Shown: positions 30,332-49,203 of the stretch, piece by piece
Numbering within the stretch: the first letter of the stretch is position 1
Layout: each line of letters begins with the position of its first letter
Assembly (NCBI RefSeq): GCF_016937515.1
Contig: NZ_JAFHKM010000002.1
Coordinates: 4,645,001-4,709,000, forward strand
Direction: 5' to 3'
DNA length: 64,000 nt
Source: Cohnella algarum
GTDB taxonomy: Bacteria; Bacillota; Bacilli; Paenibacillales; Paenibacillaceae
Program-made: the position numbers and the translations under genes
The notes under the pieces: generated by a model
The model's database searches: none
The model's input: only the letters and a program-made list of their open reading frames with translations
What the model was told of the DNA's origin: nothing

Positions 30332-32233
30332 GTGTGCCACGCATGGCGATTAACTAGGTGGTGAAAGTCCACTGTGGGGGTTTGTAGTTACCAACCACTA
30401 GCCAAGAGCAAGGGTGTCCACCGCGAGGTGGAATCCAAAGGAAGCTGGAGGCAAACTTCCGGCCCAAGGAACACGAACATCATCAGGCATAGGATACGGG
30501 ATGAGTCTGCTAAACAAGACGAAGTCCAATTAACTACACGGACGTACCAATGTAAATGATGTGGGTATATGGAAGGAAAGTGAATCGTCTTACCGTGGGA
30601 GGTCTCATGGACGTGAGGAGATGCACTTCGAATCACGGTTGAAACAAGATTTATCATGAGAAGTCAGCAGACGCCATAGTACCGCGAACAGTCGACGGTT
30701 CGAGGGAAGGGCTGAACCTTAGGAGGTGAAGTCAATGAAAGTTACCGAAACAGGAGCCAAGGGCAGCCAACTTCTAACGGAAGACTCTTTGCAAAAGAAT
30801 AGTGCGGAACACGAAGGATATGCGGGAGTGCACAGTCCTGCGAGGATAACCGAAACCGACGACACCAACGCAACCGAGTCGAAGGACCGGTTGCTTGAGA
30901 AAATCGTTAGCAGGGACAACTTGAACGAAGCATTCAAGAGAGTCAAAGCGAACAAGGGATCGCACGGAATCGACGGGATGGGAGTAGATGAACTTCTACA
31001 ATATCTCAGAGACAACGGCGAGACCATCAAGCAACTGATCTTGGGCGGCAAGTACCGCCCGAATCCCGTTCGAAGGGTAGAGATTCCCAAAGAGAACGGA
31101 AAGAAGAGAAACCTTGGCATTCCAACAGTGGTTGACCGAGTCATCCAGCAGGCAATCGCCCAAGTGCTTACGCCAATTTATGAGAGGCAGTTTTCAGACA
31201 ACAGCTACGGATTCCGACCCAAACGGAGCGCACACCACGCGATGAAACGAAGCCAACAATACGTGCAAGAGGGATATCGTTACGTGGTGGATATGGACTT
31301 GGAGAAATACTTTGACACCGTCAACCAAAGCAAGCTCATCGAGGTGCTTTCAAGAACGATCAAAGACGGACGAGTGATCTCGCTCATCCATAAGTATCTC
31401 CGGGCGGGAGTCGTCGTGAAGCATAAGTTTGAGGACACGGAAATCGGCGTACCGCAGGGAGGGAACCTAAGTCCGATTCTCAGCAATATCATGCTGAATG
31501 AATTGGACAAGGAACTGGAAGCAAGAGGACATCGATTCGTGCGATACGCAGACGATATGCTCATATTCTGCCGGAGCAGGAGGAGTGCGGAGCGTACCCT
31601 GACGAAAATTCTCCCTTACATCGAGAAGAAGTTGTTTCTCAAGGTAAACCGGGAGAAAACGATTGTGGACGATGCGACAAAAGTTAAATTTCTTGGCTTC
31701 TCATTCTACCAGAGCAAAGGGGAAACGCGGGTCAGAATCCATCCCAAATCCGTATCCAAGATGAAAGCTAAAGTGAAAGAGCTAACGTCGAGAAGCAACG
31801 GAATGGGCAACACCGACCGGGCGCTGAAGCTTAGGCGTTACATCATGGGATGGGTAAATTATTTCAAGCTTGCTGACATGAAACAACTACTCCAAACCAC
31901 TGATAAATGGATGAGAAGGCGTATCCGAATGGTCTTCTGGAAGCAATGGAAACGAGTGAGGACGAAACTCGAAAGGCTTATATCGCTCGGAATTCATGAA
32001 CAGAAGGCGTGGGAATACGCAAACACAAGAAAGGGCTATTGGAGAATCTCCAATAGCCCAATCCTCTCGAAGTCCCTCGGTAACAATAGGCTGAAGAACC
32101 TCGGATTCCTTTTCTTTTCTGATTATTATCGACAAGTTACTGCGCATTCCTAATGGAACCGCCGTATACCGAACGGTACGTACGGTGGTGTGGGAGGTCG
32201 GCTGCCCAATTAATGGGTAGCCTCCTACCCGAT
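30332..32233 (+). mobile_element. Group IIC intron with maturase
   Basis: The 5' end GTGTG at 30332 matches the group II start consensus. About 400 bases of structured RNA domains precede the reverse transcriptase gene. After its stop, a domain V-like hairpin (CCGCCGTATACC, GAAC, then GGTACGTACGGTGG, about 32160-32195) and a domain VI-like hairpin (GGAGG... GCCTCC) lead to the end CTACCCGAT at 32233. Insertion right after a terminator T tract is characteristic of class C introns. All parts look intact, so self-splicing and mobility are plausible. Confidence 0.85.
30735..32153 (+). CDS. ltrA: Group II intron reverse transcriptase/maturase
   Basis: The 472-residue protein holds the reverse-transcriptase core with NLGIPTVVDRVIQQAIAQVL, YGFRPKRSAHHA, GVPQGGNLSPILSNI and the catalytic FVRYADDMLIF, followed by the maturase (X) domain and the C-class GIIM end WMRRRIRMVFWKQWKR...AWEYANTRKGYWRIS. 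No HNH endonuclease domain is visible, as in class C. AGGAGGTGA precedes ATG 30735. It helps the intron splice and copies it into new sites. Confidence 0.93.
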   Translation: MKVTETGAKGSQLLTEDSLQKNSAEHEGYAGVHSPARITETDDTNATESKDRLLEKIVSRDNLNEAFKRVKANKGSHGIDGMGVDELLQYLRDNGETIKQLILGGKYRPNPVRRVEIPKENGKKRNLGIPTVVDRVIQQAIAQVLTPIYERQFSDNSYGFRPKRSAHHAMKRSQQYVQEGYRYVVDMDLEKYFDTVNQSKLIEVLSRTIKDGRVISLIHKYLRAGVVVKHKFEDTEIGVPQGGNLSPILSNIMLNELDKELEARGHRFVRYADDMLIFCRSRRSAERTLTKILPYIEKKLFLKVNREKTIVDDATKVKFLGFSFYQSKGETRVRIHPKSVSKMKAKVKELTSRSNGMGNTDRALKLRRYIMGWVNYFKLADMKQLLQTTDKWMRRRIRMVFWKQWKRVRTKLERLISLGIHEQKAWEYANTRKGYWRISNSPILSKSLGNNRLKNLGFLFFSDYYRQVTAHS

Positions 32234-34852: not shown

Positions 34853-34853
34853 G

Positions 34854-34922
34854 CCCGTGCTCGGCAGCGTCAGCCATAAGGTGGCGAAACGGGCGCACTG
34901 CCCGGTAAGGATCGTGAAGTAG
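34854..34922 (+). pseudogene. Remnant of a universal stress protein gene (UspA C-terminus)
   Basis: Directly after the chrA stop, the frame from 34854 reads PVLGSVSHKVAKRAHCPVRI then VK and stops at 34922. This is the typical last strand and helix of UspA proteins (GSVS...HCPV.IV). The rest of the gene is missing and there is no start, so it is a deletion scar next to chrA. Confidence 0.65.
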
Positions 34923-34936
34923 CTTGGCCATGCAAA

Positions 34937-34966
34937 TTGACTGGGAACGTTCATAAACGCTATAAT
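34937..34966 (+). promoter_or_regulatory. Promoter of the LacI-family regulator
   Basis: TTGACT (34937-34942) and TATAAT (34961-34966) with an 18-base spacer. Transcription should start near 34973, at the first operator half-site. Confidence 0.75.
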
Positions 34967-34973
34967 TTCATTG

Positions 34974-34993
34974 TTGTGCAAAAAATTGCGCAT
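34974..34993 (+). promoter_or_regulatory. LacI-type operator at the regulator's own promoter
   Basis: TTGTGCAA (34974-34981) and TTGCGCAT (34986-34993), 12 bases apart, lie at and just after the transcription start. They match the TTGCGCAA core found at three other promoters of the locus, so autoregulation is expected. Confidence 0.6.
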
Positions 34994-35011
34994 GGATTGG
35001 AGGGAGCGCAA

Positions 35012-36013
35012 ATCAAACTGAAAGAAATCGCAAAAAAGGCAAATGTCTCGATCAGCACGGTGTCCAGGATCATCAACAATCAGGGCAATTTCAGCGAGGA
35101 GACCCGCCGAAAAGTATTGGAAATTGCGAATGAGCATTTAAAACCGGGTGTCGCTCCCTCTAAGCTGGCGGGCATATCCTATAAGATCGTCGTCATCGTT
35201 CCGGGCAATCACGATTTCGTCGATAATGACCCGTCTACCTCTGCGGACCTGACTCATTTGAAGGAAGAACTCGAAGCGTACGGTCATCAAGTTCAAATTG
35301 CGAAGCATCACTCCGACCTGCAGTCGTCTCCGGCTTATAAGCTCTTAAACGAGGAGAAAGCGGACGCAGCCATCGTTTTCGACCCATTCGTCAATGACAA
35401 AATATTCGAAGAATTTGACAGACGCGGAATTCCGTACGTGCTTACGAATGGACGAACCTATAAGTCCGGTCACAACTATATCGACTACGATAACCGCAAG
35501 GGCGCTTATGAGGTGATTCGATATCTGCATGGATTGGGTCATCGGAAAATCGGAATCATCGCGGGGCCCCGGAATCATCTGGTGAATTTAAACCGGCTGG
35601 ACGGGTGCAAAGACGCATTTCGCGATTTGAACATGCCATGGATCGACACCAATGTCGTCATGGGGGCATTCGATCCTGCCCATGGATACGAGGCGGTAAA
35701 GCAATTGATGAGCGAGCAGCCGTCCATAACGGCCATTTTTACGTTTAACGACATCATTGCTTTCGGGGCCATGAAGGGATTGGCCGACCTGAACGTTCGG
35801 ATTCCGAAGGATGTCTCCTTGGTCGGTTTCGACGATTTAAAGCTGTCGGAGTTCATGGTTCCGCCGTTAACGACAGTCCGAAGGTTCAGATACGATATCA
35901 GCTCGATCATCGCAAAGGTTCTGACGGAATTGATTGCGAACCAAAACATTTCAGAAGTACACATCAGCCTTAAGACCGAGCTGATTGAGCGGGAATCATG
36001 CTCAAAAGCGTAG
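35012..36013 (+). CDS. LacI-family transcriptional regulator (apparent ATC start)
   Basis: The DNA-binding domain KLKEIAKKANVSISTVSRII and the periplasmic-binding-protein-like effector domain (GHRKIGIIAGP, FTFNDIIAFGAMKG, VSLVGFDDLKLSEFMVPPLT) make a 333-residue LacI/GalR repressor. The family normally starts Met-Lys-Leu-Lys-Glu-Ile-Ala; here the codon at that place is ATC, 8 bases after a perfect GGAGG. A TTG at 34997 is in frame but has no ribosome site. It probably represses the sugar genes of this locus through TTGCGCAA operators and is relieved by a sugar ligand. Confidence 0.85.
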   Translation: MKLKEIAKKANVSISTVSRIINNQGNFSEETRRKVLEIANEHLKPGVAPSKLAGISYKIVVIVPGNHDFVDNDPSTSADLTHLKEELEAYGHQVQIAKHHSDLQSSPAYKLLNEEKADAAIVFDPFVNDKIFEEFDRRGIPYVLTNGRTYKSGHNYIDYDNRKGAYEVIRYLHGLGHRKIGIIAGPRNHLVNLNRLDGCKDAFRDLNMPWIDTNVVMGAFDPAHGYEAVKQLMSEQPSITAIFTFNDIIAFGAMKGLADLNVRIPKDVSLVGFDDLKLSEFMVPPLTTVRRFRYDISSIIAKVLTELIANQNISEVHISLKTELIERESCSKA

Positions 36014-36042
36014 GGCAAGGTGCTCCGCGAATCGATCCGACA

Positions 36043-36088
36043 AGCCGTCCTTCAGCTGTTCCGCCAAGCTGAGGACGGCTATTTTGCG
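36043..36088 (+). terminator. Terminator after the LacI-family gene
   Basis: GCCGTCC-TTCAGCT pairs with AGCTGA-GGACGGC, followed by TATTTTGCGTTTTT. Very stable stem. Confidence 0.8.
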
Positions 36089-36127
36089 TTTTTCAACTTG
36101 CGCTTGCGGGAATCGTCATAATTTGGA

Positions 36128-36157
36128 TTGACGAAGCGAGCGGAGGTAGACTATACT
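36128..36157 (+). promoter_or_regulatory. Promoter of the DUF4832 gene
   Basis: TTGACG (36128-36133) and TATACT (36152-36157) with an 18-base spacer, the same layout as the regulator's promoter. Confidence 0.75.
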
Positions 36158-36160
36158 GAG

Positions 36161-36193
36161 AGCGCAATTGAATTGCGCAATAAATTTGCGCAG
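36161..36193 (+). promoter_or_regulatory. Triple LacI-type operator
   Basis: GCGCAATTGAATTGCGC (36162-36178) is a perfect 17-base palindrome at the transcription start; further TTGCGCA motifs begin at 36173 and 36186. Three half-operators spaced by 12 and 13 bases suggest strong, co-operative repression. Confidence 0.7.
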
Positions 36194-36218
36194 CAATCAC
36201 CATTATGGGAGGGACGTT

Positions 36219-38177
36219 ATGAAAAGGTCTGCACCATTTTTGAAAGCGATTGCGGTGTTATTGTCGTTTGGGTTGCTGACGGGAGGTTCGCTAGGGGTGC
36301 CGTTTCTTGATAAGGCGTCAGCCGCTGTCGGTTCGATCACCGTTCATTTAACGGAAACGCAAGAGGCTTTCAAAAATCCCTTCAAGGGATTCAGGCCTAC
36401 CCGCTTCATGAATGACACCGGATTTTCGAATCATGAATACGGAACTGTGTTCAAGCACTATATCAAATACACGGATTTGGAAAACGCGGCGTCGGACTCC
36501 GTTCAGAAGATCAAGGATTGGAGCAACGCGGCCTGGGCAGGAATCGAAAGCCAGAATAAAAAGGTGATTCCTCGCGTTTTCATCGTATACCCGAACGGAG
36601 GAGAGTATTGGCCGCAAGGCGTCCCTCACGGCGACGTGACGACGCAATGGACGACGGATGTCTTGAAGAACCGTCTGGTGGCCTTCATCCAGAAGCTTGG
36701 TCAAGCTTGGGATAACGATCCCCGAGTCGCCTATATCGAGCTGGGATTGTGGGGGAATTGGGGAGAGCATCATATTTGGCCGGATACGCTTGCCGACGGG
36801 ACCGATCGCATTCCGCTAAGCTTTCAGACAGCATTAGGCGACGCTGCATCGCAAGCTTTTCAAAACAAGAAAGTTCAGGTAAGGTATCCCGAAACGTTCC
36901 AGAATTATGACTTCGGGTTTTTGTGGGATTCTTTCGCCTTGATCGACGATCTGGCAGGAGGGGAAGGCATTGTTGCAAGAGATGTCTGGAGAACGCAAAT
37001 CAACGGCGGCGAAGTTGCCTACGATTGGGGACAGAAGCATATCCAGCCCGGCGATTCTCCGAATGACACCTTAAGCGATCCGATCCATCGGAACTACGTT
37101 ATCGATTGGATCAAAAAGACGCACACAACCAGTCTTGGTTGGATCGATCTGTACGATGCCGGAAATCCCGCCGTCTCGCAGGGAGCTGCGTTGATGCAGA
37201 AGGAATTCGGATATCGATTCGTCATCAACCAGGCGACATTTTCCGGCAGCGTGGAGCCAGGCGGAACGATGAACGTATCCTTTCAAGTTGTAAACAAAGG
37301 ATCGGCTCCGTTCTATTATGACTGGCCTGTAGAAGCCAGTTTACTGCGCAGCGATCGCACGGTAGCTTGGAAGGGACTTTTCGACAACGTGGACATTCGG
37401 AATTGGATGCCGGGCGACGATTGGAACAGTTCGACACGTCAATATAATCAAGCGCCAGCCGTTCATCAAGTTTCCGGCGCGTTTACCATTCCTTCGAATA
37501 TGCCGGCGGGAACCTACACCTTGGCACTTTCCATTCTTGACCCTTACGGCTACAAGCCAAGCGCCAGATTTGCCAACGCCAATTATTACACAGGCGGGCG
37601 AACGCCGCTCGGAAAAGTGGGAATCGGCATGGATCCCGCCGATCAGAACATAGGTCCTTTCGATAATCTGAAATCGGACAATACGCTTTCGTATAGCCTG
37701 ACTCAAACTCCATATGACGGCGGCATTTCGGGAGGCGGCGGAACGAACGGCTTGCTGCTGGACAACTTCGACAACTCGCCGGGCTGGCCGGGAGCCAACG
37801 ATCTCGGCATATGGGCAGGCGCCAACGGGTTTGCAAACGATGCAGGCGTCATCGAATCGGGGGCGTTGAAGCTTCAATACAACAACAACGGATGGTTCGG
37901 CTCCGATATCAACCAGAGCATCGCGAGCTACTCGAAGATGGTGATTCGCATCAAAGGCGCAAATGGCGGCGAGCAAAATCATTTCCAGCTCACGATCGGC
38001 GGAGTGACGCAAACCTTGGCGGCTTTCAGCGGAGATACGATAACGACCGGCTACAAAGATATTGAAATTGATTTGGCATCGAACGGCGTAAATCGCAGCA
38101 ACCCCGGACAATTGTCGATGTCATTCTGGCATGGAGGGAACAGTTCGATCTGGATCGATGAGATTCGTTTCGAATAA
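36219..38177 (+). CDS. Secreted DUF4832 (glycoside-hydrolase-like) protein
   Basis: The 652-residue protein has a signal peptide cleaved after ASA near residue 35. The next part (FKNPFKGFRPTRFM, PRVFIVYPNGGEYWP, AWDNDPRVAYIELGLWGNWGEHH) matches the DUF4874/DUF4832 pair, a TIM-barrel hydrolase-like fold whose enzymatic role I do not know to be shown. A beta-sandwich follows (VSFQVVNKGSAPFYYDWPVE), then a Gly linker and a C-terminal domain of about 140 residues like a carbohydrate-binding module. GGGAGGG precedes ATG 36219. Under the LacI operator, it probably acts on the polysaccharide or oligosaccharide used by this locus. Confidence 0.78.
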   Translation: MKRSAPFLKAIAVLLSFGLLTGGSLGVPFLDKASAAVGSITVHLTETQEAFKNPFKGFRPTRFMNDTGFSNHEYGTVFKHYIKYTDLENAASDSVQKIKDWSNAAWAGIESQNKKVIPRVFIVYPNGGEYWPQGVPHGDVTTQWTTDVLKNRLVAFIQKLGQAWDNDPRVAYIELGLWGNWGEHHIWPDTLADGTDRIPLSFQTALGDAASQAFQNKKVQVRYPETFQNYDFGFLWDSFALIDDLAGGEGIVARDVWRTQINGGEVAYDWGQKHIQPGDSPNDTLSDPIHRNYVIDWIKKTHTTSLGWIDLYDAGNPAVSQGAALMQKEFGYRFVINQATFSGSVEPGGTMNVSFQVVNKGSAPFYYDWPVEASLLRSDRTVAWKGLFDNVDIRNWMPGDDWNSSTRQYNQAPAVHQVSGAFTIPSNMPAGTYTLALSILDPYGYKPSARFANANYYTGGRTPLGKVGIGMDPADQNIGPFDNLKSDNTLSYSLTQTPYDGGISGGGGTNGLLLDNFDNSPGWPGANDLGIWAGANGFANDAGVIESGALKLQYNNNGWFGSDINQSIASYSKMVIRIKGANGGEQNHFQLTIGGVTQTLAAFSGDTITTGYKDIEIDLASNGVNRSNPGQLSMSFWHGGNSSIWIDEIRFE

Positions 38178-38199
38178 TGGCGTATGAAACGTCAAACAA

Positions 38200-38225
38200 G
38201 ACCGGCCTGCGGGCCGGTCTTCATC
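38200..38225. terminator. Bidirectional terminator between DUF4832 and GH31 genes
   Basis: GACCGGCC pairs with GGCCGGTC around a 4-base loop between two converging genes. T-rich stretches lie on both sides (TTCATCTT on the plus strand, CTTGTTTG on the minus). Confidence 0.7.
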
Positions 38226-38257
38226 TTCTGCCAGGGTGGATAAACGTCCGTTTTCCG

Positions 38258-39795
38258 TTATTGAATTTTTTTAAACCATGGCAACCGGGAAAGAGGAGCC
38301 TTGACTTCGACCCGGATGGGCCCCTCGACTACGCTTCCGTCATCCCCCTGCCATCGGCCTTCCGGAAATTGGATCGTTCGAGTCGTCTGTCCCTTATGCA
38401 AGACCGGGGCAACCAGAATGGATTCGCCAACCATGAATTGATCCTGAACGGAATGGAAGCCTTGATGAGGAAAAACGAATTCCAGACTGCGCAGGATCGG
38501 AAGTCCATCTTTCGCGGCTTGGTTTGCAAGCTCGAAGAGCAGAGGGCCTAATTCCGTTCGAATTCGTACGGCGTCCATGCACCAGGACAATTCGTCGCCG
38601 GTCAAAACTCGCCATGGCGCCATGGAAAACTGCATCACGGGAAATAAAGCCGAGCATTGAACGTAACGGATAAAAAGTTCGGAATCAAAACGGAAATCGG
38701 GCGAATTAATGTCGCCATCCATCCCTCCGCCAACCATGTCGGGACAATTGAAGGCATATCCCAGCAGGCCCTGGGCGATTGCGTTGGGGATTAAGCCCCC
38801 CAGTCCGGTCGCATCCCATGTGTGCGTTTTATCGCGTTGCCGCTGGATGAGCGGCTGTCCTCCGAGTTTCCAGCACATGCGCAATTCGCTAAGCGCGTAG
38901 CCGATTCCCAAACGAGCATAGCATTCGCAATCCTCCATCGGGCGGACAGGGCGCGACCATGCGACGTCCTCCGCAACGTCATTCGTCAGATCGGGCAACA
39001 GGGGTTCTCCCGCGTCCAACTTGAATCCGTCGACCCCGTATCGTTCGATCAGCCTGTCTAACTGCTGCTTGAACCATGCGGATCCTTCCGTGCTCGTGTA
39101 GTCAACGACCGCACTGTACCCGTTCCACCATCTTCTCAGGACAGGAGTGCCGTCCGCATGCTTCATCAAGAGCCCAAGATCGCGCAATTGCCGGAATTTG
39201 ATGCTGTCGGGACTCACATACGGGCATACCCAGAGCATGATTTTAAACCCTAATTCGTGCAAAGCATCGATCATCCCGGCGGGGTCGGGAAATCGATGCT
39301 TGTCGAAGTCCCAGGTTCCATAGTCCTGCATCCAATTATCGTCGATGATGATCACGCCCGGGGGAAAGCCGTTCCGAAGGATGGACCTTGCGTAATCGAG
39401 GAGCTTCTCCTGCGTCGGTTCGTAAAACATTTCGACCCAAGTGCAATATTGCGGCGCTACAAAGGCCAGTTCGTCAGGCATAATGCCGGAAGGGGGAAAT
39501 GCGCATGGCTTGCATGCCGGTAAGCGCCTTGAAGGGTTTCATGTCCGTCTTCAATCCGTATGTCCTGTTTGTGATCGATCGTAAGGGTGTTCTCGTTAAA
39601 TGAAAAGGCAAACGGCTCTTCGCTCCAAATATACCTTCCCCGATTGGAGAGCAGCAAAGGGGACGCTTGATTGTCATCCGTCAAACGCAAATCGCGCGAA
39701 TGCGGACGGCTGCCAAAAGGCATCAAATGCCCTTCGTTTATAACGCCTCCCCACCAGAATTCTCCGGGCTTTCTTTCCAATGTCGTGATCGTCAT
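38258..39795 (-). pseudogene. Glycoside hydrolase family 31 protein, frameshifted as read
   Basis: Two reading frames together cover about 512 residues of a cytoplasmic GH31 glycosidase. The N-terminal beta domain (from ATG 39795, after TAGGAGTG) shifts by -1 at a run of five C near 39490 into the barrel, which begins LAFVAPQYCTWVEMFY. The nucleophile is in DGFKLDAGEP and the likely acid/base Asp in HTWDATGLGG. The KLDAGE form occurs in the branch that includes MYORG and some alpha-galactosidases, rather than in classical alpha-glucosidases. Restoring one C gives HFPPSGIMPDELAF. It has its own TTGCGCAA operator and diverges from the binding-protein gene. Confidence 0.8.
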
Positions 39796-39829
39796 GGCAG
39801 ACACTCCTAAGTCATGTGATGAAAATAAT

Positions 39830-39837
39830 TTGCGCAA
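39830..39837 (-). promoter_or_regulatory. LacI-type operator of the GH31 gene
   Basis: A perfect TTGCGCAA inside an A/T palindrome (AATAATTTGCGCAATTATT). On the minus strand TTGCTT and CATAAT, 17 bases apart, place the transcription start just upstream of it, as at the other two promoters. Confidence 0.6.
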
Positions 39838-39926
39838 TTATTTACTGTTATTATGGATGAATTTATCTTTAAAAGCAAATCTTTTTTATCTTAACAATTA
39901 GGCATTCGATCTTAAAAATGAGGCAT

Positions 39927-39941
39927 TTAAAACGGTTTTAA
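39927..39941. promoter_or_regulatory. Palindrome in the divergent GH31/binding-protein region (cre-like)
   Basis: TTAAAACGGTTTTAA is a perfect 7+1+7 palindrome with the ACGGT core resembling CcpA sites, though it lacks the TG...CA ends. It lies between two sugar promoters, so carbon catabolite control or another regulator is possible. Confidence 0.4.
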
Positions 39942-39994
39942 CCTTCGATTAAAATAAGCTTGTAAAGAGGAAAAGCGTCTTCTTGCTCCATAGT

Positions 39995-40002
39995 TTACGC
40001 AA
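39995..40002 (+). promoter_or_regulatory. Variant LacI-type operator before the binding-protein gene
   Basis: TTACGCAA differs by one base from the TTGCGCAA core and follows a possible -10 (CATAGT, 39989-39994), the same relative position as at the other operators. Confidence 0.4.
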
Positions 40003-40038
40003 AAATTTTCCTTAATCAATTTTCTAGGGGGATGTCAA

Positions 40039-41361
40039 ATGGTAAAACGAAACAAGTTTTCATTCGTGTTTGCGGTTGTCTTCATCGCTTTTGCTTTGGT
40101 TGCCGCTGCATGCAGCGGCGGCTCGAACAACGCATCGGACAAGGGTCCAAACAACAGCGCAGGGGGAACGGCGGAGGAGCCCCAAAAGAATGTAACGCTT
40201 ACCTATGCCATTTGGGATAAAATTCAGCAGCCGGCAATGGAAGCGATTGCGAAGGAGTTCACGGCCGAAAATCCGCATATCGAGATCAAAGTCGAAGTCA
40301 TCCCGTGGGGCGATTATTGGACCAAAATGTCCGCTGCGGCTCCGGCAGGGACGTTGCCCGATGTTTTTTGGATGCACGGAGGTCAATTTGTCAAATATGC
40401 GACGGGCAATTTCCTCGAACCGATCACGAGCAAGGTGCAGGCCGGGGAAATCGATCTGAGCAATTATGCGGCAGACCTTGCTTCCATCTACACGCTGAAC
40501 GGCGAAAATTACGGCGTGCCCAAAGATTTCGACACAATCGGTTTGGCGTACAACAAAGAGCTGTTCGATCAAGCCCATATTCCGTATCCGGACGACACGT
40601 GGGATTACGCGAAGCTTGCCGAGGTTGCCAAGCAATTGAGCCAGCCGGACAAAGGCATCTACGGCTTTGGCGCGAAACTGGACACGCAAACCGGTTATTG
40701 GAACGATATGCTGGCGAATGGCGGGAGTATTTTGTCCGACGATATGAGCAAGTCGGGGTACGACGAACCGGCTTCGATCGAAGCTCTGCAAGCCCGGTAT
40801 CAAATGATTCTCGACGGCGCTTCTCCGACCCACCAGCAAATGACGGATACGGAAGCAACCGAGATGTTCAAGTCCGGAAAATTAGCGATGATCTTTGACG
40901 GGTCCTGGCGGATCAGCGATATAGACGGCAGCGAAATTATCAAGGGAAAATGGGATTGGGCGAAATTGCCTATGGGCAAGGTGAAAAGAGGCAACATCAT
41001 TAACGGCTTGGGCAACGTCATGTCCGTGGCCGGAAAGAACAAGGAAGAAGCCTGGCTGTTCCTCAAGTTCCTCGGTTCCCAAAGAGCAGCGGAAATCACG
41101 GCGGAAATGGGCGCGGCCATTCCGGCATTCAACGGCACTCAAGAAGCGTGGCTGACTTCGAAACCGCATTTGAATCTCAAAGTGTTCACCGATCAAGTCG
41201 CCGATGCGATTCCGTATCCGAGCGGTTCCAAGTCGTACCCGGTATGGTTTGCGAAAGAACCCGAGATTATGTCGCAAGCATGGGGCGGAGCCATCCCGGT
41301 AGAGGAAGCCGCGAAAAAGGTCGCGGAGATGATGAATCAAGCGATAGCCGAAACGAAATAA
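40039..41361 (+). CDS. Sugar ABC transporter substrate-binding lipoprotein (locus 2)
   Basis: A 440-residue family 1 solute-binding protein with signal sequence and lipobox AAAC (SGGSNNAS follows). VTLTYAIWDKIQQPAMEAIAKEF starts the mature fold; PDVFWMHGGQFVKYATGNF and GLAYNKELFDQAHIPYPDDTWDY are typical blocks. AGGGGG precedes ATG 40039. With the two following permeases it forms an importer, again with no ATPase gene in the locus. Confidence 0.92.
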   Translation: MVKRNKFSFVFAVVFIAFALVAAACSGGSNNASDKGPNNSAGGTAEEPQKNVTLTYAIWDKIQQPAMEAIAKEFTAENPHIEIKVEVIPWGDYWTKMSAAAPAGTLPDVFWMHGGQFVKYATGNFLEPITSKVQAGEIDLSNYAADLASIYTLNGENYGVPKDFDTIGLAYNKELFDQAHIPYPDDTWDYAKLAEVAKQLSQPDKGIYGFGAKLDTQTGYWNDMLANGGSILSDDMSKSGYDEPASIEALQARYQMILDGASPTHQQMTDTEATEMFKSGKLAMIFDGSWRISDIDGSEIIKGKWDWAKLPMGKVKRGNIINGLGNVMSVAGKNKEEAWLFLKFLGSQRAAEITAEMGAAIPAFNGTQEAWLTSKPHLNLKVFTDQVADAIPYPSGSKSYPVWFAKEPEIMSQAWGGAIPVEEAAKKVAEMMNQAIAETK

Positions 41362-41387
41362 GCCAACTGTTCAAATGAAAGGGATTC

Positions 41388-41420
41388 GGGGGACGTTCTT
41401 GACGATCGGGAACGTCTCCC
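41388..41420 (+). terminator. Intercistronic hairpin between binding-protein and permease genes
   Basis: GGGGGACGTTC pairs with GAACGTCTCCC around 11 bases and is followed by TTGATAG. A leaky terminator or RNA-stabilising hairpin here would give more binding protein than permease, as is common in these operons. Confidence 0.6.
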
Positions 41421-41438
41421 TTGATAGGGAGTGGTCAG

Positions 41439-42308
41439 ATGAATTCCAGAAGCAGGTATGCGTGGGCCTATTTCATGATCGCGCCGACCCTTATAGGCAC
41501 ACTGGTTTTCTGGGGATGGCCGGTTGTCCAATCGATTTTGCTGGGCTTTCAGCGGTCGGAGAATTTCGGGCTCGAAACGTATTGGGTTGGATTAGACAAC
41601 TATGCGAAGTTGTTTCATGACGAAGAGTTTTGGCAGAATCTCCGCAACACCTTGTACTATGTTGTACTGTTTGTGCCGCTTACGCTTGCGCTCTCTACAT
41701 TTTTCGCCGTCCTGCTGAATACGAAGATCAAAGCCTTGTCCGTTTACCGTGTCGTTTTTTTCTTGCCTCAAGTCACGATGCCCGCAGCGGCGGCGATGGT
41801 TTGGGTCGTCTTGTTCGCTCAGGACTTCGGGCTTGTCAATCATATTTTGGGAACCCGCGTAGCCTGGCTGTCCGATCCCCGTTATGCCATGTTCGTGTTG
41901 GTGATCGTCGGCGTATGGGGGGCGATCGGCTTGAATATGCTGCTGATTCTCGCGGGCTTGCAAGGGATACCTAAAGCGCTTTATGAAGCGGCGGAAATCG
42001 ATGGCGCCCGAAGATTCAACAAATTTCGCTATATTACCGTTCCCATGCTGACGCCGACGCTTTTTTTCACGAGCATCATCCTTTTGATCGGAGCGACGCA
42101 AATTTTCGACTCCATCTATCTGATTATCGGAAAGACGAACGTAGCGCTTCCATCCGTTCGCTCGCTTGTCTATGCGTATTACCAAAACAGCTTCGTTTAT
42201 TTTAATCCCAATTATGGCGCCGCGATTATTAATGTCTTGCTGTTGATTAACCTTTTGCTGACGGGGATTCAATTTGCTTTTCAGAAAAAATGGGTCGTTT
42301 ACGAATAA
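41439..42308 (+). CDS. Sugar ABC transporter permease 1 (locus 2)
   Basis: A 289-residue MalF-like permease with six helices beginning YAWAYFMIAPTLIGTLVFWG. The EAA loop reads GIPKALYEAAEIDGARRFNKFRYITVPMLTP. GGGAGTGG precedes ATG 41439. The second permease starts 17 bases after its stop. Confidence 0.92.
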   Translation: MNSRSRYAWAYFMIAPTLIGTLVFWGWPVVQSILLGFQRSENFGLETYWVGLDNYAKLFHDEEFWQNLRNTLYYVVLFVPLTLALSTFFAVLLNTKIKALSVYRVVFFLPQVTMPAAAAMVWVVLFAQDFGLVNHILGTRVAWLSDPRYAMFVLVIVGVWGAIGLNMLLILAGLQGIPKALYEAAEIDGARRFNKFRYITVPMLTPTLFFTSIILLIGATQIFDSIYLIIGKTNVALPSVRSLVYAYYQNSFVYFNPNYGAAIINVLLLINLLLTGIQFAFQKKWVVYE

Positions 42309-42325
42309 GGAAGGGGGTGACCGAA

Positions 42326-43156
42326 ATGCGCATCTCATCGGCGAGGAAGATCAACTTGATCGTTCATATCATTCTGATCATCAGCGCCGTCGCCATGCTC
42401 GTACCCTTTGTATGGATGGTGCTCACTTCGCTGAAGACAACGACGGAAGCCACGCAAATTCCGATCCGTTATTTTCCCGAGGCCCCCAGCTTAAGAGGAT
42501 ATATCGAGGCGATCAAGCAATCGGAATTTCCATATTACTATTTGAATACCGTGTTCACGGCTTTCATGAAGACCGTGTTTCCGGTCATCTTTAGCTCGAT
42601 GGCGGCATATGCCTTCGCCCGGATCAGGTTTCCGGGAAGTTCGATTCTTTTTGTCGTGATTCTGTCGGTCATGATGGTGCCCAATCCTGTTTTTTATACG
42701 CCGCAATATATGATGATGAGCGACTTGGGCCTGGTCAATACGGTTACTGCGCTTTGGATTACCTCGTTGATCAGCCCGTTTGCTACCTTTCTTTTAAGGC
42801 AATTTTTCTTGTCCATATCTAAAGAATTGGAAGAAGCGGCCGTGTTGGACGGCTGCAATCCATTTCAAATTTATTGGCATATTATGCTTCCTTTAGTCAG
42901 GTCGGCTTTAGTCGCCATTGTCATCATTCAACTGCAGTGGGCATGGAACGAGCTGCAATGGCCGCTCATCATTAACAGCTCGCCCGAGAAGATGACCTTG
43001 TCGTCAGGCATCGCGACACTCGTTTCCATGTTTGGGACGGATTACCCGGTATTGATGGCAGGGGCCTTCATGGCGGTCGTTCCGATGATCGTCCTCTTTT
43101 TTATCTTTCAAAAGCAGTTTATCGAAGGCGTCGCCTTCAGTGCGCATAAAGGGTAA
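42326..43156 (+). CDS. Sugar ABC transporter permease 2 (locus 2)
   Basis: A 276-residue MalG-like permease. KELEEAAVLDGCNPFQIYWH is the EAA loop, and the tail QKQFIEGVAFSAHKG is typical. AAGGGGGTG precedes ATG 42326. A hairpin GCACATG/CATGTGC lies about 35 bases after the stop but lacks a T tract. Confidence 0.92.
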   Translation: MRISSARKINLIVHIILIISAVAMLVPFVWMVLTSLKTTTEATQIPIRYFPEAPSLRGYIEAIKQSEFPYYYLNTVFTAFMKTVFPVIFSSMAAYAFARIRFPGSSILFVVILSVMMVPNPVFYTPQYMMMSDLGLVNTVTALWITSLISPFATFLLRQFFLSISKELEEAAVLDGCNPFQIYWHIMLPLVRSALVAIVIIQLQWAWNELQWPLIINSSPEKMTLSSGIATLVSMFGTDYPVLMAGAFMAVVPMIVLFFIFQKQFIEGVAFSAHKG

Positions 43157-43316
43157 ATCGGGATAACCGAATGTTGGATGGAATCGGGGCACATGACATT
43201 CAAATGCATGTGCTCCTGTTCCTGTCTTTATGGCAGGCACCTTCATGGCGGCAGCGCGCTTTGATAGAATAGGTGTAGGCTAGCTAGAGGCTCTATCGTA
43301 AAGGAGGCAGCGCTTG

Positions 43317-44837
43317 ATGAAACCTGCCGTCATGGGCATGGTTGCGATACTTTTCATGTCTCTGACGTACGTCCTGTACAGTAAATATATCGGCCCCGAC
43401 TTGTCCGATTCGCCTCGATTCGACAATGCCGACGGCGCGGATCGGCCGGAGGGAGACGTGCCGGAATCATTTGTCGCTTTGAAGGTGATTATGCCAGGCG
43501 ATCAGTCGGCTCGAATGGCGGACTTCGTCGAGAATGAATTGAATGATCGGCTTAAGCAAGATTTAAATATGAAGCTTGAATTGACTTATATTCCGTGGTC
43601 CAATTACCAGCAAAAACTGGAACTGGCCTTGTCGACCGGAGGAGATTACGATTTGTTCTGGTACGGCGCGCCATTCGTCTCCGTTTATCACACGAAAGGT
43701 TATATTCAGCCGTTAGACAAGCTTCTCGACCAATATGGGCGGGATCTCGTCGAACAGATTCCCGAAGAAAACTTCGAGCAGAACCGGATCGACGGGAAGC
43801 TTTGGGCGATACCGTCTCAAGCCTTTACGTCCGCCGGGAAATTCTCCTCCGTTATGGTTCGCCAGGATTTGCTGGAGAAGGTCGGCATGTCGGAGGTAAA
43901 CACAATTGCCGATTTGGAACGGTTTTTTGAAAGGATGCACGCCATCGATCCAAGTTATTACGGGTATTTGGAAACCGACCGAGGGCATGAAATGTTGTGG
44001 CGCGAGTTAACGGATCGAAACTACTCCTCGTTGGATGAGCGAATGTTATTTATGGTGGATGAAGATTCCGGGGAAATGCTGAGCTATGTGGAGTCCGATT
44101 TATACAAAAAGGTGGCTCAATTACGCGAGTCATGGGTGGAGAAGGGTATAATTGACCAGAATCTGGTAGGCAATCCGGCGGCGAAGATCGATCAGGAAAA
44201 TGCGGGAAAGCTCCTTTTTCGCGTAGGTGCGGTCTCCAGGGCGATGGAGAACCTGCAAACGGCACGGAACGCCGATCCGAATGCCAGGCTTCGGGAGTAT
44301 TATCTGGCCAAGGAAAAGCCCAAGTTCATTACGACCCCCAGCAATGAAGCCTTTATGATTACGGCTGCGTCGGAAAATCCCGAACGCGCGATGATGTTTA
44401 TGAATTGGATTCTGCGCAGCAAAGAAAATTATCGTTTCATTATTTACGGGGTTGAGGGAAAGGACTACGAACTGGAACAAGGGAAAATCGAGTTTTTGAC
44501 GAATGACCAGTTCATTTACGAATGGATGTGGCGAAACAAGGACTATTTTATCCCGCCTGCCGGCGTAGAGGATGACATCATCCAGGATATGCTGACGAAT
44601 GACGAGAACTCCCGCATTTCCAAGCTGTTCGGGTTTCATTTTAACGAGGCGCCCGTCAAAAATGAGATCGCGCAGGTCATGGCGGTTTACAAGGAAAAAT
44701 TCGAGCCCATCAATTTTGGCTTGGCCAGCTATGAACAATATTATGAAGATGCCATCGCAGCTCTCAAAAAGGCAGGCTTTGACCTTGTCTTTGCCGAATT
44801 AAAAAAACAGTACTCGGAATTCCGACTCCAACATTAG
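43317..44837 (+). CDS. Second extracellular solute-binding-like protein, membrane-anchored
   Basis: A 506-residue family 1 binding-protein relative. It begins with a hydrophobic segment (AVMGMVAILFMSLTYVLY) but has no lipobox Cys, so it is likely held by an uncleaved helix. Blocks such as KLELTYIPWSNYQQKLELAL, YDLFWYGAPFV and the C-terminal EPINFGLASYEQYYEDAIAA fit the LplA/DUF3502 type. AAGGAGG precedes ATG 43317. It lies between the permeases and the sensor kinase; I infer that it may present ligand to the kinase rather than to the transporter. Confidence 0.8.
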   Translation: MKPAVMGMVAILFMSLTYVLYSKYIGPDLSDSPRFDNADGADRPEGDVPESFVALKVIMPGDQSARMADFVENELNDRLKQDLNMKLELTYIPWSNYQQKLELALSTGGDYDLFWYGAPFVSVYHTKGYIQPLDKLLDQYGRDLVEQIPEENFEQNRIDGKLWAIPSQAFTSAGKFSSVMVRQDLLEKVGMSEVNTIADLERFFERMHAIDPSYYGYLETDRGHEMLWRELTDRNYSSLDERMLFMVDEDSGEMLSYVESDLYKKVAQLRESWVEKGIIDQNLVGNPAAKIDQENAGKLLFRVGAVSRAMENLQTARNADPNARLREYYLAKEKPKFITTPSNEAFMITAASENPERAMMFMNWILRSKENYRFIIYGVEGKDYELEQGKIEFLTNDQFIYEWMWRNKDYFIPPAGVEDDIIQDMLTNDENSRISKLFGFHFNEAPVKNEIAQVMAVYKEKFEPINFGLASYEQYYEDAIAALKKAGFDLVFAELKKQYSEFRLQH

Positions 44838-44871
44838 ATGCCGAGCCCGATTTTGAGAGGACGATTCGATC

Positions 44872-46584
44872 TTGAGCAGATTCAGCATATTCACGAAACT
44901 GATCGCTACTTTGTTTATTTTGCTTATCCCGATTTTGCTCCTGTTTGTGGTATCGAATCGAACAAGCACGGGCGTATTGACTGACGAAATTATTAAAGTG
45001 AAGCGATATCAGATCGAAACGTTCGCAAGCCAACTGGATCAGCTGTTTTTCCAATTCGATACCTATCAGAAAATGTTGTATGAAAGTACGGATGTGCGCA
45101 ATTTAGCGTATCCCGATTTGCTTGACGATGTTTTGAATAAATATAGAATCAATCGAACCGTCTCGGAGGAAATTAATCGGCTTGCCGGTTATGGCGATTG
45201 GAAAGCCGTCATCGCGGTCGTCTACCCTCGTACCGGAAACGTCATTAAAAGCAGTTCCAGTTTGAATGCGCTTCCAAATAAACTTCCCGCACAGGATACG
45301 TTTTGGCAATACTATTCCGATCCCCATGAGGATTATTTCATGGAAATCTTGTCTTATCCGGATAACGCTGCGGAATCGGGCGAGGCGCATATGAGAGTCG
45401 TGCTTAAGTTCGGCGTGGCCGCCTTGCGCAGCGCTTTAACCGAATTTAAAGCGAACGGTTCGGGGGATCCCTTTCTGTACCATCCGGAAGAGGATCCTAT
45501 TTACAATTATTCCGTTAATTTTGATCAGATTGACGAATTTCTTCCCGATCTCAAGGGGCTTGATTCTTCGGCGGATAGCGGATATTTGTTGCTTGAATCC
45601 GACAATACGAGATTTCAGGTCCACTATCAAAAACTGGATTCATTAGGCTGGTATTTGGTTGATTATGTGCCCATCAGTCAAATTATGGCGCCGATCAGCC
45701 GAAACCGGATGATGTTTTATGCGATAAGCGGCATGCTTCTGTTTATGGGGGCCTATCTTGCCTTTGTCATGTATCGCAATATTCAGATTCCATTCCGGAA
45801 ACTGATTCGGAACATGAATTTGATTGAGAAGGGGATTTATTCCATTCGCATGGAAGACAAGCCCAAAGGGGAGTACCGTTTTCTTTATGAAAGATTCAAT
45901 TCCATGGCGTCCAAAATCGAGGAGTTGATTGAGAATGTTTATAAAGAACAGCTCCGGTCGAAGGAAGCGACGCTGAAGCAGCTGCAATCGCAGATCAACC
46001 CGCACTTTCTCTACAATACGCTTGCTTACATCAAAAGCATGATCGAGTTGAATGAAAACAGAGCCGCCATTTCGATGACCATGAACTTGAGCAAGTACTA
46101 TCGGTATACGACCAAAACGGGGAACAAGATGGTGCGGCTGAAAGAGGAACTGGACTTGGTGAGTTTTTATCTGGAAATCCATTGCATGCTGAGAGACGAT
46201 TTTGAATTCCAGATCGAGACCGAGCCGCAGATGGAAGATATACGGGTTCCACGGTTGATTGTACAGCCGCTTGTTGAAAATGTAATCCTCCATGCGTTCA
46301 AAAATCAATCGGAATACGGAATGATTCGAATCCGATGCTGGAGGGAAGAACGCATGAACCATATAGCGGTCGAGGATACGGGCGCGGGGGTTGATCATTC
46401 CTTTATCGAGTCGATGAGAAAGAAAATTTATACGAATAACGAAGAAGTGGAATCCGGGCTGAAAAACGTTCATCAACGTCTGCGTTTAATGTATGGCAGC
46501 GGCTCGGGATTGCGGTTGAGCAAATCGAAATTGGGCGGACTTTGCGCAGCATTATGTTGGAGCGATATGGAAGACGTGTCTTGA
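44872..46584 (+). CDS. Sensor histidine kinase, YesM type (locus 2)
   Basis: A 570-residue kinase: first membrane helix in residues 7-28, extracellular region to about 275, second helix (MLLFMGAYLAFVMY), HAMP, then QSQINPHFLYNTLAYIKSM with the phospho-accepting His at 378, followed by the HATPase domain (QPLVENVILHAF, EDTGAGVD). The G2 box region near the C-terminus is short. The start is TTG 44872 after GAGAGGACG. It lies 34 bases after the binding-like protein and 16 bases before its regulator, so one operon. Confidence 0.92.
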   Translation: MSRFSIFTKLIATLFILLIPILLLFVVSNRTSTGVLTDEIIKVKRYQIETFASQLDQLFFQFDTYQKMLYESTDVRNLAYPDLLDDVLNKYRINRTVSEEINRLAGYGDWKAVIAVVYPRTGNVIKSSSSLNALPNKLPAQDTFWQYYSDPHEDYFMEILSYPDNAAESGEAHMRVVLKFGVAALRSALTEFKANGSGDPFLYHPEEDPIYNYSVNFDQIDEFLPDLKGLDSSADSGYLLLESDNTRFQVHYQKLDSLGWYLVDYVPISQIMAPISRNRMMFYAISGMLLFMGAYLAFVMYRNIQIPFRKLIRNMNLIEKGIYSIRMEDKPKGEYRFLYERFNSMASKIEELIENVYKEQLRSKEATLKQLQSQINPHFLYNTLAYIKSMIELNENRAAISMTMNLSKYYRYTTKTGNKMVRLKEELDLVSFYLEIHCMLRDDFEFQIETEPQMEDIRVPRLIVQPLVENVILHAFKNQSEYGMIRIRCWREERMNHIAVEDTGAGVDHSFIESMRKKIYTNNEEVESGLKNVHQRLRLMYGSGSGLRLSKSKLGGLCAALCWSDMEDVS

Positions 46585-46600
46585 CGAAGGAGGAACAAAA

Positions 46601-48217
46601 ATGTACGAAATCTTGATCGTGGACGATCACACGCACTTGGTTGACAGTCTGGCGATCGGGCTTCCGTGGGAGCTAATGGGGGTCTCTAATGTCTACAAAG
46701 CCTATTCCGGCGAGGAGGCCCTGGAGCTGCTAAATTACCGTTCCGTTGATATTGTGGTCACGGATATCCAAATGAACGGAATGACCGGACTCGAATTGAT
46801 CGCTCGAATAAATGAGAAATGGAAAAACACAAAGGCGGTTATTTTAACCGGATATGATGAATTTCAATATGCGAAGGAAGCCATCCAGCAGCAAGTATGC
46901 GATTATTTACTGAAGCCGGTATCGAACGAGGACTTGGAAAAAACGCTTCGCCATATTATAAACAAGATTACGCAAGAAGGAAATGCGCTCCTGAATCAGC
47001 AAAAATTTTATTACCGGTTCAAAGAAAGCTTGCCCAAATTAAGAGAGATGTTCTTGTTCGATTTGCTGTCCGGCAAAAATTACCCCCTATCCGTTTTGAA
47101 GGACAAGATCCAGCTGGTCGAGCTGCCCATTCAAGCCGAAAGGGAAGCCATCCTCTTATGCATGAGAGTGGAGGAGGATAACTCGAATACGGATCTGTAC
47201 AGCCTCTCGTTGATCGAATATGCCATGTTTAATATTGTAGAAGAAGTATTTTCGAGTCAATTTCATGTGATCTATTGCAAAGATTCGTACGATTATTTGA
47301 TTTTCCTGGTTCAATCGAAACAAATCGAACAATCGGATCCCGATCGCTCCGCCGTTATGATTGAGGACCTGGCCCGGCTCTCCCAGCATCAAATCAAATT
47401 ATATTTAAAATCGAAAGTGTCCATTGTCCAAAGCAATTGGGGGGAGTTTCCAAAAGACATCCTGTCCATGTACCACTCCGCATTATCGATCTATACCGAT
47501 TATATCGGCTACCAGACGGAAAGTTTTTTTCAAGTAACGCAAAAGAAAGAAGCGTTCGACATTCGGCCGTTTACGGAGCTTTACCGTTCCCAAACGTTAA
47601 TGGAGTTAATCGAAATCGAGCAGTGGACGGCATTCGAGAACAAGCTGACCCGGATATTCGACGAGCTCGAAGGAGCAGGCAGCGGGGCCCGTGAATACGG
47701 GGTTGAAATCTATGTTGCGTTGCTGCATGCATACTCCTATTATTTGCACAAAAAAGGCAAACGGATTTTTGATGTATTTGGCAGAGACATCGAGAAGATG
47801 CTGAAAATCGATGCAAGCTGGAGCGTGGAACCTTTGAAGGAATGGGCTTTCGGCAGCTATGTACAAATCAAAGCGTACAGCGACAGCTATTCGGACAATA
47901 TACGTTCCGACTTGATGCAACGGATTCGCCGATTCATCCAAGGGAATATAAAGGAGATCACCCTTCAAGCGGTAGCCGATCATGTCCACCTGCATCCCGT
48001 ATACGTATCCAACTTATTCAAGCAGGAGGCCGGAGAGAACTTCTCCAACTACGTCCTTCGCCTGCGAATGGAAAAAGCGGTACAATTGTTGAAGCACAAG
48101 GATTTGAAAATCAGTCAAATTGCGCACGAAGTCGGCTATCAGAAACCGCAGTATTTTATTAAACTGTTCAAATCCCAGTACGGGATGACGCCGCAGGAGT
48201 TTAAGAACCATTTATGA
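46601..48217 (+). CDS. AraC-type response regulator, YesN type (locus 2)
   Basis: The 538-residue protein has an N-terminal receiver with phospho-acceptor Asp55 (VVTDIQMNGMTG) and a switch Lys in LLKPVSNEDLE, a central region of about 300 residues without a recognised motif, and a C-terminal AraC domain (LHPVYVSNLFKQEAGENFSN, HEVGYQKPQYFIKLFKSQYG). GAAGGAGG precedes ATG 46601. It likely activates the sugar genes while the LacI-family protein represses them, so the locus would need two signals. Confidence 0.92.
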   Translation: MYEILIVDDHTHLVDSLAIGLPWELMGVSNVYKAYSGEEALELLNYRSVDIVVTDIQMNGMTGLELIARINEKWKNTKAVILTGYDEFQYAKEAIQQQVCDYLLKPVSNEDLEKTLRHIINKITQEGNALLNQQKFYYRFKESLPKLREMFLFDLLSGKNYPLSVLKDKIQLVELPIQAEREAILLCMRVEEDNSNTDLYSLSLIEYAMFNIVEEVFSSQFHVIYCKDSYDYLIFLVQSKQIEQSDPDRSAVMIEDLARLSQHQIKLYLKSKVSIVQSNWGEFPKDILSMYHSALSIYTDYIGYQTESFFQVTQKKEAFDIRPFTELYRSQTLMELIEIEQWTAFENKLTRIFDELEGAGSGAREYGVEIYVALLHAYSYYLHKKGKRIFDVFGRDIEKMLKIDASWSVEPLKEWAFGSYVQIKAYSDSYSDNIRSDLMQRIRRFIQGNIKEITLQAVADHVHLHPVYVSNLFKQEAGENFSNYVLRLRMEKAVQLLKHKDLKISQIAHEVGYQKPQYFIKLFKSQYGMTPQEFKNHL

Positions 48218-49083: not shown

Positions 49084-49203
49084 ATGAGCTCGATGGTCCC
49101 TTATCGGTACCGTCCGATGGGTGCATGGTGCGATTTGCGCACGAAAGGCAAGATCGGAACCAATAGTATGAGGGTGATGAAGAGAACGAGGGAGAGACTA
49201 TGA
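49084..49203 (+). CDS. Small upstream ORF overlapping the adhesin start
   Basis: A 39-residue frame (MSSMVPYRYRPMGAWCDLRT then KGKIGTNSMRVMKRTRERL) follows GGAGGTG; the second ATG at 49093 has the better spacing and gives 36 residues. Its TGA overlaps the ATG of the adhesin as ATGA, the usual sign of translational coupling. The peptide is basic and resembles no family I know. Together with the riboswitch it may tune adhesin synthesis. Confidence 0.4.
   Translation: MSSMVPYRYRPMGAWCDLRTKGKIGTNSMRVMKRTRERL

Follow-up and report, generated by a model that had tools for sequence, protein, structure and literature searches.

The locus described here lies in a 64,000-nucleotide (nt) stretch of the genome of Cohnella algarum (contig NZ_JAFHKM010000002.1, positions 4,645,001 to 4,709,000), which we refer to as the window and number from its first letter. 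At 34937-48217 it carries, in this order, the gene of a LacI-family repressor (lacI; 35012..36013, forward strand), a gene for a secreted DUF4832 protein of 652 amino acids (36219..38177, forward), a GH31 gene on the opposite strand (38258..39797), a sugar ABC transporter (40039..43156, forward; binding protein 40039-41361, permeases 41439-42308 and 42290-43156) and, again on the forward strand, a second binding protein (43314-44837), a YesM-type histidine kinase (44872-46584) and a YesN-type response regulator (46601-48217). Comparison across genomes gives good support to a local regulon under this LacI-family protein, in which the operators are centred on CG and tandem cores stand 12-13 base pairs (bp) apart: a short core, TTGCGCAA or a close variant, persists at each of the four promoters among close relatives and tracks the LacI ortholog. 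An earlier note on this DNA had described a complete repressor circuit; the local regulon is backed by the comparison, but the word complete outruns the evidence.

The repressor was assessed by its domains. Its helix-turn-helix matches PF00356 with 53.9 bits (cut-off 27) and its effector domain, of the periplasmic-binding-protein-like type, matches PF13377 (Peripla_BP_3) with 98.1 bits (cut-off 26.5). Among the named NCBIfam LacI-type regulators (RbsR, CcpA, PurR and others), 18 families were matched and none scored above its curated cut-off. By these profiles the repressor is a LacI-family protein without a named subfamily. In its hinge, PGVAPSKLAG, the leucine for the central CG is present when aligned by eye, and a proline replaces the usual alanine. 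The palindromic, CG-centred operator typical of the family is found here as a conserved sequence.

The promoter of lacI (34937..34966, forward; -35 TTGACT at 34937-34942, -10 TATAAT at 34961-34966, spacer 18) was read from the sequence, and a similar one is present in close relatives. Behind it lies a putative autoregulatory operator (34974..34993; no strand is assigned to any of the operators), in which a mismatch scan places TTGTGCAA at 34974 and TTGCGCAT at 34986, 12 bp apart and each one mismatch from TTGCGCAA, in agreement with the positions first proposed. The DUF4832 promoter (36128..36157, forward; -35 TTGACG at 36128-36133, -10 TATACT at 36152-36157, spacer 18), which is kept in close relatives, has a triple operator right behind its -10 (36160..36193) with a spacing of 13 bp. 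Three copies had been counted here from 36161 onwards; there are three, but the first, GAGCGCAA, starts at 36160 and has two mismatches, the second, TTGCGCAA at 36173, is exact, and the third, TTGCGCAG at 36186, has one mismatch. The GH31 promoter (39850..39878, reverse strand; -10 CATAAT at 39850-39855, -35 TTGCTT at 39873-39878, spacer 17) was likewise read from the sequence, and an exact TTGCGCAA stands 12 bp past its -10 at 39830..39837. The transporter promoter (39927..39955, forward; weak -35 TTAAAA at 39927-39932, -10 TAAAAT at 39950-39955, spacer 17), again a sequence reading, is followed by TTACGCAA at 39995..40002, one mismatch from the core and downstream of the presumed transcription start. 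Both of the latter sites were thus found as reported, with the single change at 39995. The core starts 7 bp after the -10 of lacI, 2 and 15 bp after that of DUF4832 and 12 bp after that of GH31, so that the placement close behind the -10 at these three promoters was about right. The idea of one 8-base core common to all sites needs loosening: the sites are real, but the exact word occurs at only two of the seven named places (36173-36180 and 39830-39837). A perfect palindrome of 17 bases at 36162-36178 (GCGCAATT-G-AATTGCGC), which had also been pointed out, is present but is the product of two adjoining cores; relatives retain the core and not the palindrome (by eye), and it was rejected as an operator.

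The counts in the window are what a chance word would give: three exact copies of TTGCGCAA against 2.56 expected, and 50 with at most one mismatch against 48.6. In the genome as a whole (6.21 Mb scanned) there are 209 exact copies, compared with 158 of the reversed control word. These counts, and near-matches at the level of shuffled sequence, favour the reading that a common 8-mer was over-read. This is contradicted by the enrichment in the promoters of the locus, whose three intergenic regions hold six near-matches in 535 bp where dinucleotide-preserving shuffles give a mean of 0.68 (P = 0.0002, 5000 shuffles; regions picked with the sites already known). Unrelated intergenic DNA, in which the earlier note had considered that the motif might be equally common, holds five near-matches in 5961 bp within the window. 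Intergenic and gene calls throughout come from our own simple gene caller, which had this genome as its training set and overlooked genes in relatives. It is the conservation across relatives that settles the motif as genuine, and the probability left to chance is negligible.

Conservation was followed promoter by promoter. A scan of one genome per species returned 20 loci with a LacI relative, and LacI matches at E 1e-80 or better were found in 26 of 295 genomes of the family. At the DUF4832 promoter, compared in 32 loci, an exact core lies within 150 nt in every one of the 15 loci, the window among them, with a LacI of 83% identity or more, in two of six with a LacI of 69-80% identity over the aligned part (at -124 and -127), and in none of 11 with no LacI in the locus, one of which has a 7/8 match. 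Locus L012 was excluded from this count because of a split alignment, yet was core-positive in a separate comparison. The AT-rich arms that flank the core at the GH31 operator are nearly invariant in the relatives shown. At the lacI promoter, 18 orthologs with 82% identity or more, the window among them, were compared; 14 have the core with no more than one mismatch, 13 of these as TTGTGCAA. Of the 12 orthologs with 64-73% identity, nine have it in exact form. The transporter comparison comprised 39 loci of at least 74% identity, 24 of them in genomes with a LacI ortholog. A core of at least 7/8 stands in the 130 nt past the YesN box (described below) in 19 of these 24 and in one of the 15 genomes without the ortholog (Fisher P 1e-5, relatedness ignored); LacI-type proteins in the latter 15 are at most 34% identical among the matches listed.

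Several of these observations weigh against the regulon as drawn. Four of the six DUF4832 promoters in the 69-80% group are without an exact core, none of the 18 close lacI promoters has one and four of them carry at least two mismatches, and five of the 24 LacI-bearing genomes show no good core at the transporter. Furthermore, a worn palindrome occupies the position of the transporter operator in LacI-less genomes G121, G137, G133, G073 and G127, so that it may be a relic there or serve another protein. In L145, L154, L157, L158 and L161, loci in genomes with no LacI ortholog, a worn palindrome was noted at the transporter operator that may form an RNA hairpin, serve another regulator or be a relic. 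Such palindromes where this LacI is missing would suit a different regulator that binds TTGCGCAA in the same genomes, with LacI as an incidental neighbour, as would the presence of the core beside another LacI-type gene in this genome. However, the core tracks the presence of LacI and occupies the promoter of lacI itself, and the second LacI gene has GTTACGTAAC-like words in relatives, in which the exact TTGCGCAA is not kept. We therefore consider such a regulator very unlikely.

The genome scan that the earlier note had proposed revealed no convincing target outside the locus. Genome-wide, WWTTGCGCAAWW occurs 32 times, compared with nine times for the reversed control, and two of the sites are within the locus; 27 of the 30 others lie inside called genes and three are intergenic. 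The only sugar-related one of these three, G000:C2:2214482, is located between another LacI-type gene and the second DUF4832 gene of the genome, and the remaining two adjoin spoVG and a COX15/CtaA gene. The sugar-related site was checked in 16 orthologs of the neighbouring gene with at least 66% identity (26 loci were returned, of which the 10 more distant were left unused). Only the window's own genome, out of the 16, had an exact core there; the three others that carry the window's LacI had none. One-mismatch words occurred in nine of the 15 besides the window's genome, GTTACGTAAC-like words were common by eye, and the site was rejected as a second target. At L062:2886-5599, a second, separate LacI-type gene of the same genome stands divergent from a DUF4832 gene. 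This pair is present in the 15 other genomes that were compared, and GTTACGTAAC-like words can be seen by eye between the two genes.

The register of the operator was judged from the spacing and extent of the sites. Cores are 13 bp apart at DUF4832, 12 bp at lacI and 32 bp at lacI in the distant relatives L016 and L018. Neighbouring cores 12-13 bp apart also give exact or nearly exact CGCAA-N4/5-TTGCG at the LacI, DUF4832 and transporter promoters of many relatives, which would suit an operator made of inverted half-sites between the cores, in a PurR-like manner, in place of TTGCGCAA itself; the CGCAA half-site resembles that of PurR. In the genome, CGCAAN{4,5}TTGCG shows no excess (29 compared with 34 in the control) and was rejected as a genome-wide operator. 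Against the half-sites, lone cores with no partner are kept at the GH31 promoter and at the lacI promoter of the distant group, and the transporter operators of the distant group extend to longer palindromes centred on CG, perfect over 24 bp in L143 (GAGAAAATTTGCGCAAATTTTCTC). Even palindromes with a central CG are, moreover, the rule in the LacI family, where the distances between neighbouring sites peak at 13, 22 and 32 bp (Ravcheev et al., 2014, PMC4052901). The half-site register thus appears unlikely, and palindromes centred on the CG of TTGCGCAA remain the preferred operators.

In these respects the locus resembles the local LacI sugar regulons of the same study (PMC4052901), which are autoregulated and have an even, CG-centred palindrome and spacings of about 13 and 32 bp. 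It differs in the core TTGCGCAA and in its targets, DUF4832 and a short GH31; the name Paenibacillus is absent from the main text of that paper. How a pair of dimers can share sites that lie about 13 bp from each other is treated there as an open point (PMC4052901), to which the locus adds examples and no answer. The passages on the LacI recognition code in PMC2978694 contain neither TTGCGCAA nor a direct test.

The earlier suggestion that two regulators, of the LacI and YesN types, act on one locus finds direct support in a YesN-type box that occurs twice between the divergent promoters. The YesN-type protein combines a receiver (PF00072) and an AraC-type helix-turn-helix (PF12833) in one chain, and the adjoining YesM-type kinase has a His_kinase domain (PF06580). 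Amid the divergent GH31 and transporter promoters, an 18-bp direct repeat (ATCTTAACAATTAGGCAT / ATCTTAAAAATGAGGCAT; 39888..39926, forward strand) has its two copies, 39888-39905 and 39909-39926, 21 bp apart, and these are the only mismatch-free boxes of the genome. With at most two mismatches the box occurs 78 times in the genome and 66 times in the control, so that single worn boxes mean nothing and the perfect pair alone stands out. Since the repeat abuts the weak -35 of the transporter and ends nine bases from the -35 of GH31, it could serve both promoters.

A box pair 20-21 bp apart and with a score of at least 22/30 was found at all 39 transporter promoters irrespective of LacI, and at no promoter did any of 100 single-base shuffles reach the observed score. 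In 36 of the 39, the same contig encodes a YesN-type relative (37-100% identical) no more than 15 kb away, with at least 55% identity in 25 and 37-38% in 11. In the remaining three, the best YesN match is on another contig in two, and in one there is only a 35% match, also on another contig. Since 11 of the nearby proteins are only 37-38% identical, the link of the box with the promoter is firmer than that with any single YesN ortholog. We conclude that the repeat is probably a YesN site. YesN-like pairs also occur at DUF4832 promoters with no exact core (L020, L036, L037, L038, L039 and L041; 19-26/30), while the 15 core-bearing loci score 14-17/30 and the LacI-less L043 scores 20, all of these scores being without a shuffle control. 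As a lead, this suggests that the DUF4832 gene may have switched between LacI and YesN control in some relatives.

A comparable system is XydS/R of Clostridium cellulolyticum (PMC3572039), in which an AraC-type response regulator acts on sugar-related genes and common sequence features lie upstream of and on the -35. In contrast to the passages on XydR, which describe both direct and inverted repeats and no fit to a published logo, the box here is a sharp 18-bp element repeated at 20-21 bp in 39 promoters, and its region is shared with a LacI operator. The same paper cites a YesM/YesN-type system of Paenibacillus JDR-2. Our literature searches on LacI proteins with AUC/AUU starts, on non-canonical starts, on Paenibacillus YesN together with LacI and on YesN sites yielded nothing that we recognised as this system, and absence is claimed no further than that.

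The start of the repressor was located by comparing 30 different orthologs, the window included, with identities from 64% upwards (46 loci, less 15 duplicates and one 52% relative). The LacI homology opens with ATC or ATT in 16 of the 30, with ATG in seven, TTG in six and GTG in one, all at the same position. In the window this codon is the ATC at 35012, which follows GGAGGG after a 7-nt spacer, and a GGAGG- or GGGGG-type sequence lies a few bases 5' of the AUC/AUU codon in all 16. One could instead suppose that translation begins at a TTG or ATG five codons upstream, overlapping the ribosome-binding sequence. Such a codon is in frame in seven of the 16 (window, L002, L003, L004, L007, L014 and L111), and L005 and L010 offer starts 12 and 25 codons upstream. 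In the remaining seven, a stop lies upstream in frame and no ATG, GTG or TTG comes between it and the codon, the next downstream start, at codon 12-36, would cut the DNA-binding domain in all 16, and the ATG, GTG and TTG orthologs use the same codon position. The upstream start is accordingly quite unlikely. The window itself has TTG, GTG and TTG in frame upstream, which counts against an AUC start there, and its assignment thus rests on the orthologs. On this comparison, LacI probably starts at the AUC at 35012. Gene finders that accept only ATG, GTG and TTG misplace this start: the list of open reading frames extends the gene in the window, and our own caller trimmed it in L001.

A precedent is ccpN, which starts with AUA in Staphylococcus aureus and whose non-canonical start is kept in Bacillus subtilis; non-canonical codons gave about a tenth of the AUG output in poor medium (PMC13009471). 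Both cases concern a metabolic repressor with a weak non-canonical codon after a strong ribosome-binding sequence, conserved between species. Here, unlike in ccpN (PMC13009471), the probable start codon is AUC or AUU, the protein belongs to the LacI family, and other orthologs have ATG, GTG or TTG.

With respect to the target proteins, we know of no activity for DUF4832, as the earlier note had also stated, but the family is not a total blank, because a glycosidase-like TIM-barrel enzyme is predicted. The DUF4832 protein is predicted to consist of a TIM barrel and beta domains, and invariant glutamates, including E174, E183 and E265, are found in 47 aligned homologs. By the order of elements in the predicted fold, we tentatively read these three as lying near strands 4 and 7, the strands that carry the catalytic glutamates in clan GH-A. 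The predicted barrel with beta domain and the invariant glutamates resemble TIM-barrel glycosidases (clan GH-A, such as GH5 and GH35; GH14), although identity is just 7-12% among the structural matches listed. A search of solved structures by sequence with the DUF4832 protein found no relative. The protein is without an internal stretch of about 330 amino acids that is present in many relatives (fn3/CBM6 in L003). Further DUF4832 proteins with fn3, LysM or CBM domains stand beside the LacI ortholog at L013:11607-15008, L020:9970-12372 and L018:12321-14891, and other relatives have open frames of about 2100 amino acids with DUF4832-like matches near the locus.

The GH31 gene encodes 516 amino acids in L003, where its frame is open; in the window as assembled the frame is broken within 39493-39499, adjoining a run of C, which may be a true frameshift or a sequencing error. 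The GH31 target may therefore not work in this strain, a further point against the regulon as drawn. Between DUF4832 and GH31, where the window has a short gap (38178-38258), L003 carries a Gfo/Idh/MocA oxidoreductase gene, and six other relatives have open frames of similar size. Around the locus, a group II intron reverse transcriptase/maturase (30726-32153) lies upstream and a large LPXTG-anchored pilin-like protein (49200-52799) downstream of YesN. Between a chromate transporter and lacI, the stretch 34853-34922 ends by eye in ...GSVSHKVAKRAHCPVRIVK-stop, which resembles a leftover universal stress protein tail.

Control of the locus is best explained by a LacI repressor with CG-centred operators and a YesN-dependent transporter under AND control, and on the sequence evidence we hold this to be highly probable. 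It is a well-supported and ordinary type of control circuit; the start codon of the repressor is unusual. From the motif, promoters, repeat, conservation, co-occurrence and codon we infer the binding, direction of control, ligand, order of events and low dose as follows. Little LacI would be produced, its AUC start being weak and its promoter self-repressed, and it would bind even palindromes centred on the CG of TTGCGCAA. When no inducing sugar is present, it would occupy sites just past the -10 at lacI, DUF4832 and GH31 and, at the transporter operon, a site early in the transcript, and would block transcription at its start or shortly after. The transporter, with its poor -35, would in addition require phosphorylated YesN on the 21-bp direct repeat, and since LacI release and YesN activation would both be needed, it would be under AND control. 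Its inputs would be an outside signal through YesM/YesN, perhaps by way of the second binding protein, and the absence of LacI. Import of the oligosaccharide product would then supply the inner ligand, which would release LacI and open the enzyme genes. With exact operators at DUF4832 and GH31 and weaker ones at lacI and the transporter, the transporter might respond first and the enzymes later.

The dose of the repressor may itself be set at translation. In the lacI operator, TTGTGCAA, the central C is changed relative to the exact core at the enzyme genes. We offer only tentatively, and as less probable than the circuit itself, the proposal that the AUC/AUU start keeps the dose low while the weakened operator loosens self-repression, and that species retune the dose by exchanging the codon among AUC, AUU, ATG, GTG and TTG. 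If this were true, start-codon identity would be an evolvable setting for LacI-type switches, perhaps with derepression tied to the state of translation initiation. With an AUC/AUU start, this LacI-family repressor would join the regulators that begin at non-canonical codons. For the secreted DUF4832 family, the locus provides a testable operator and a paired activator site, and because it ties DUF4832 to an oligosaccharide transporter, inducer screens with a simple reporter could reveal the sugar on which DUF4832 acts.

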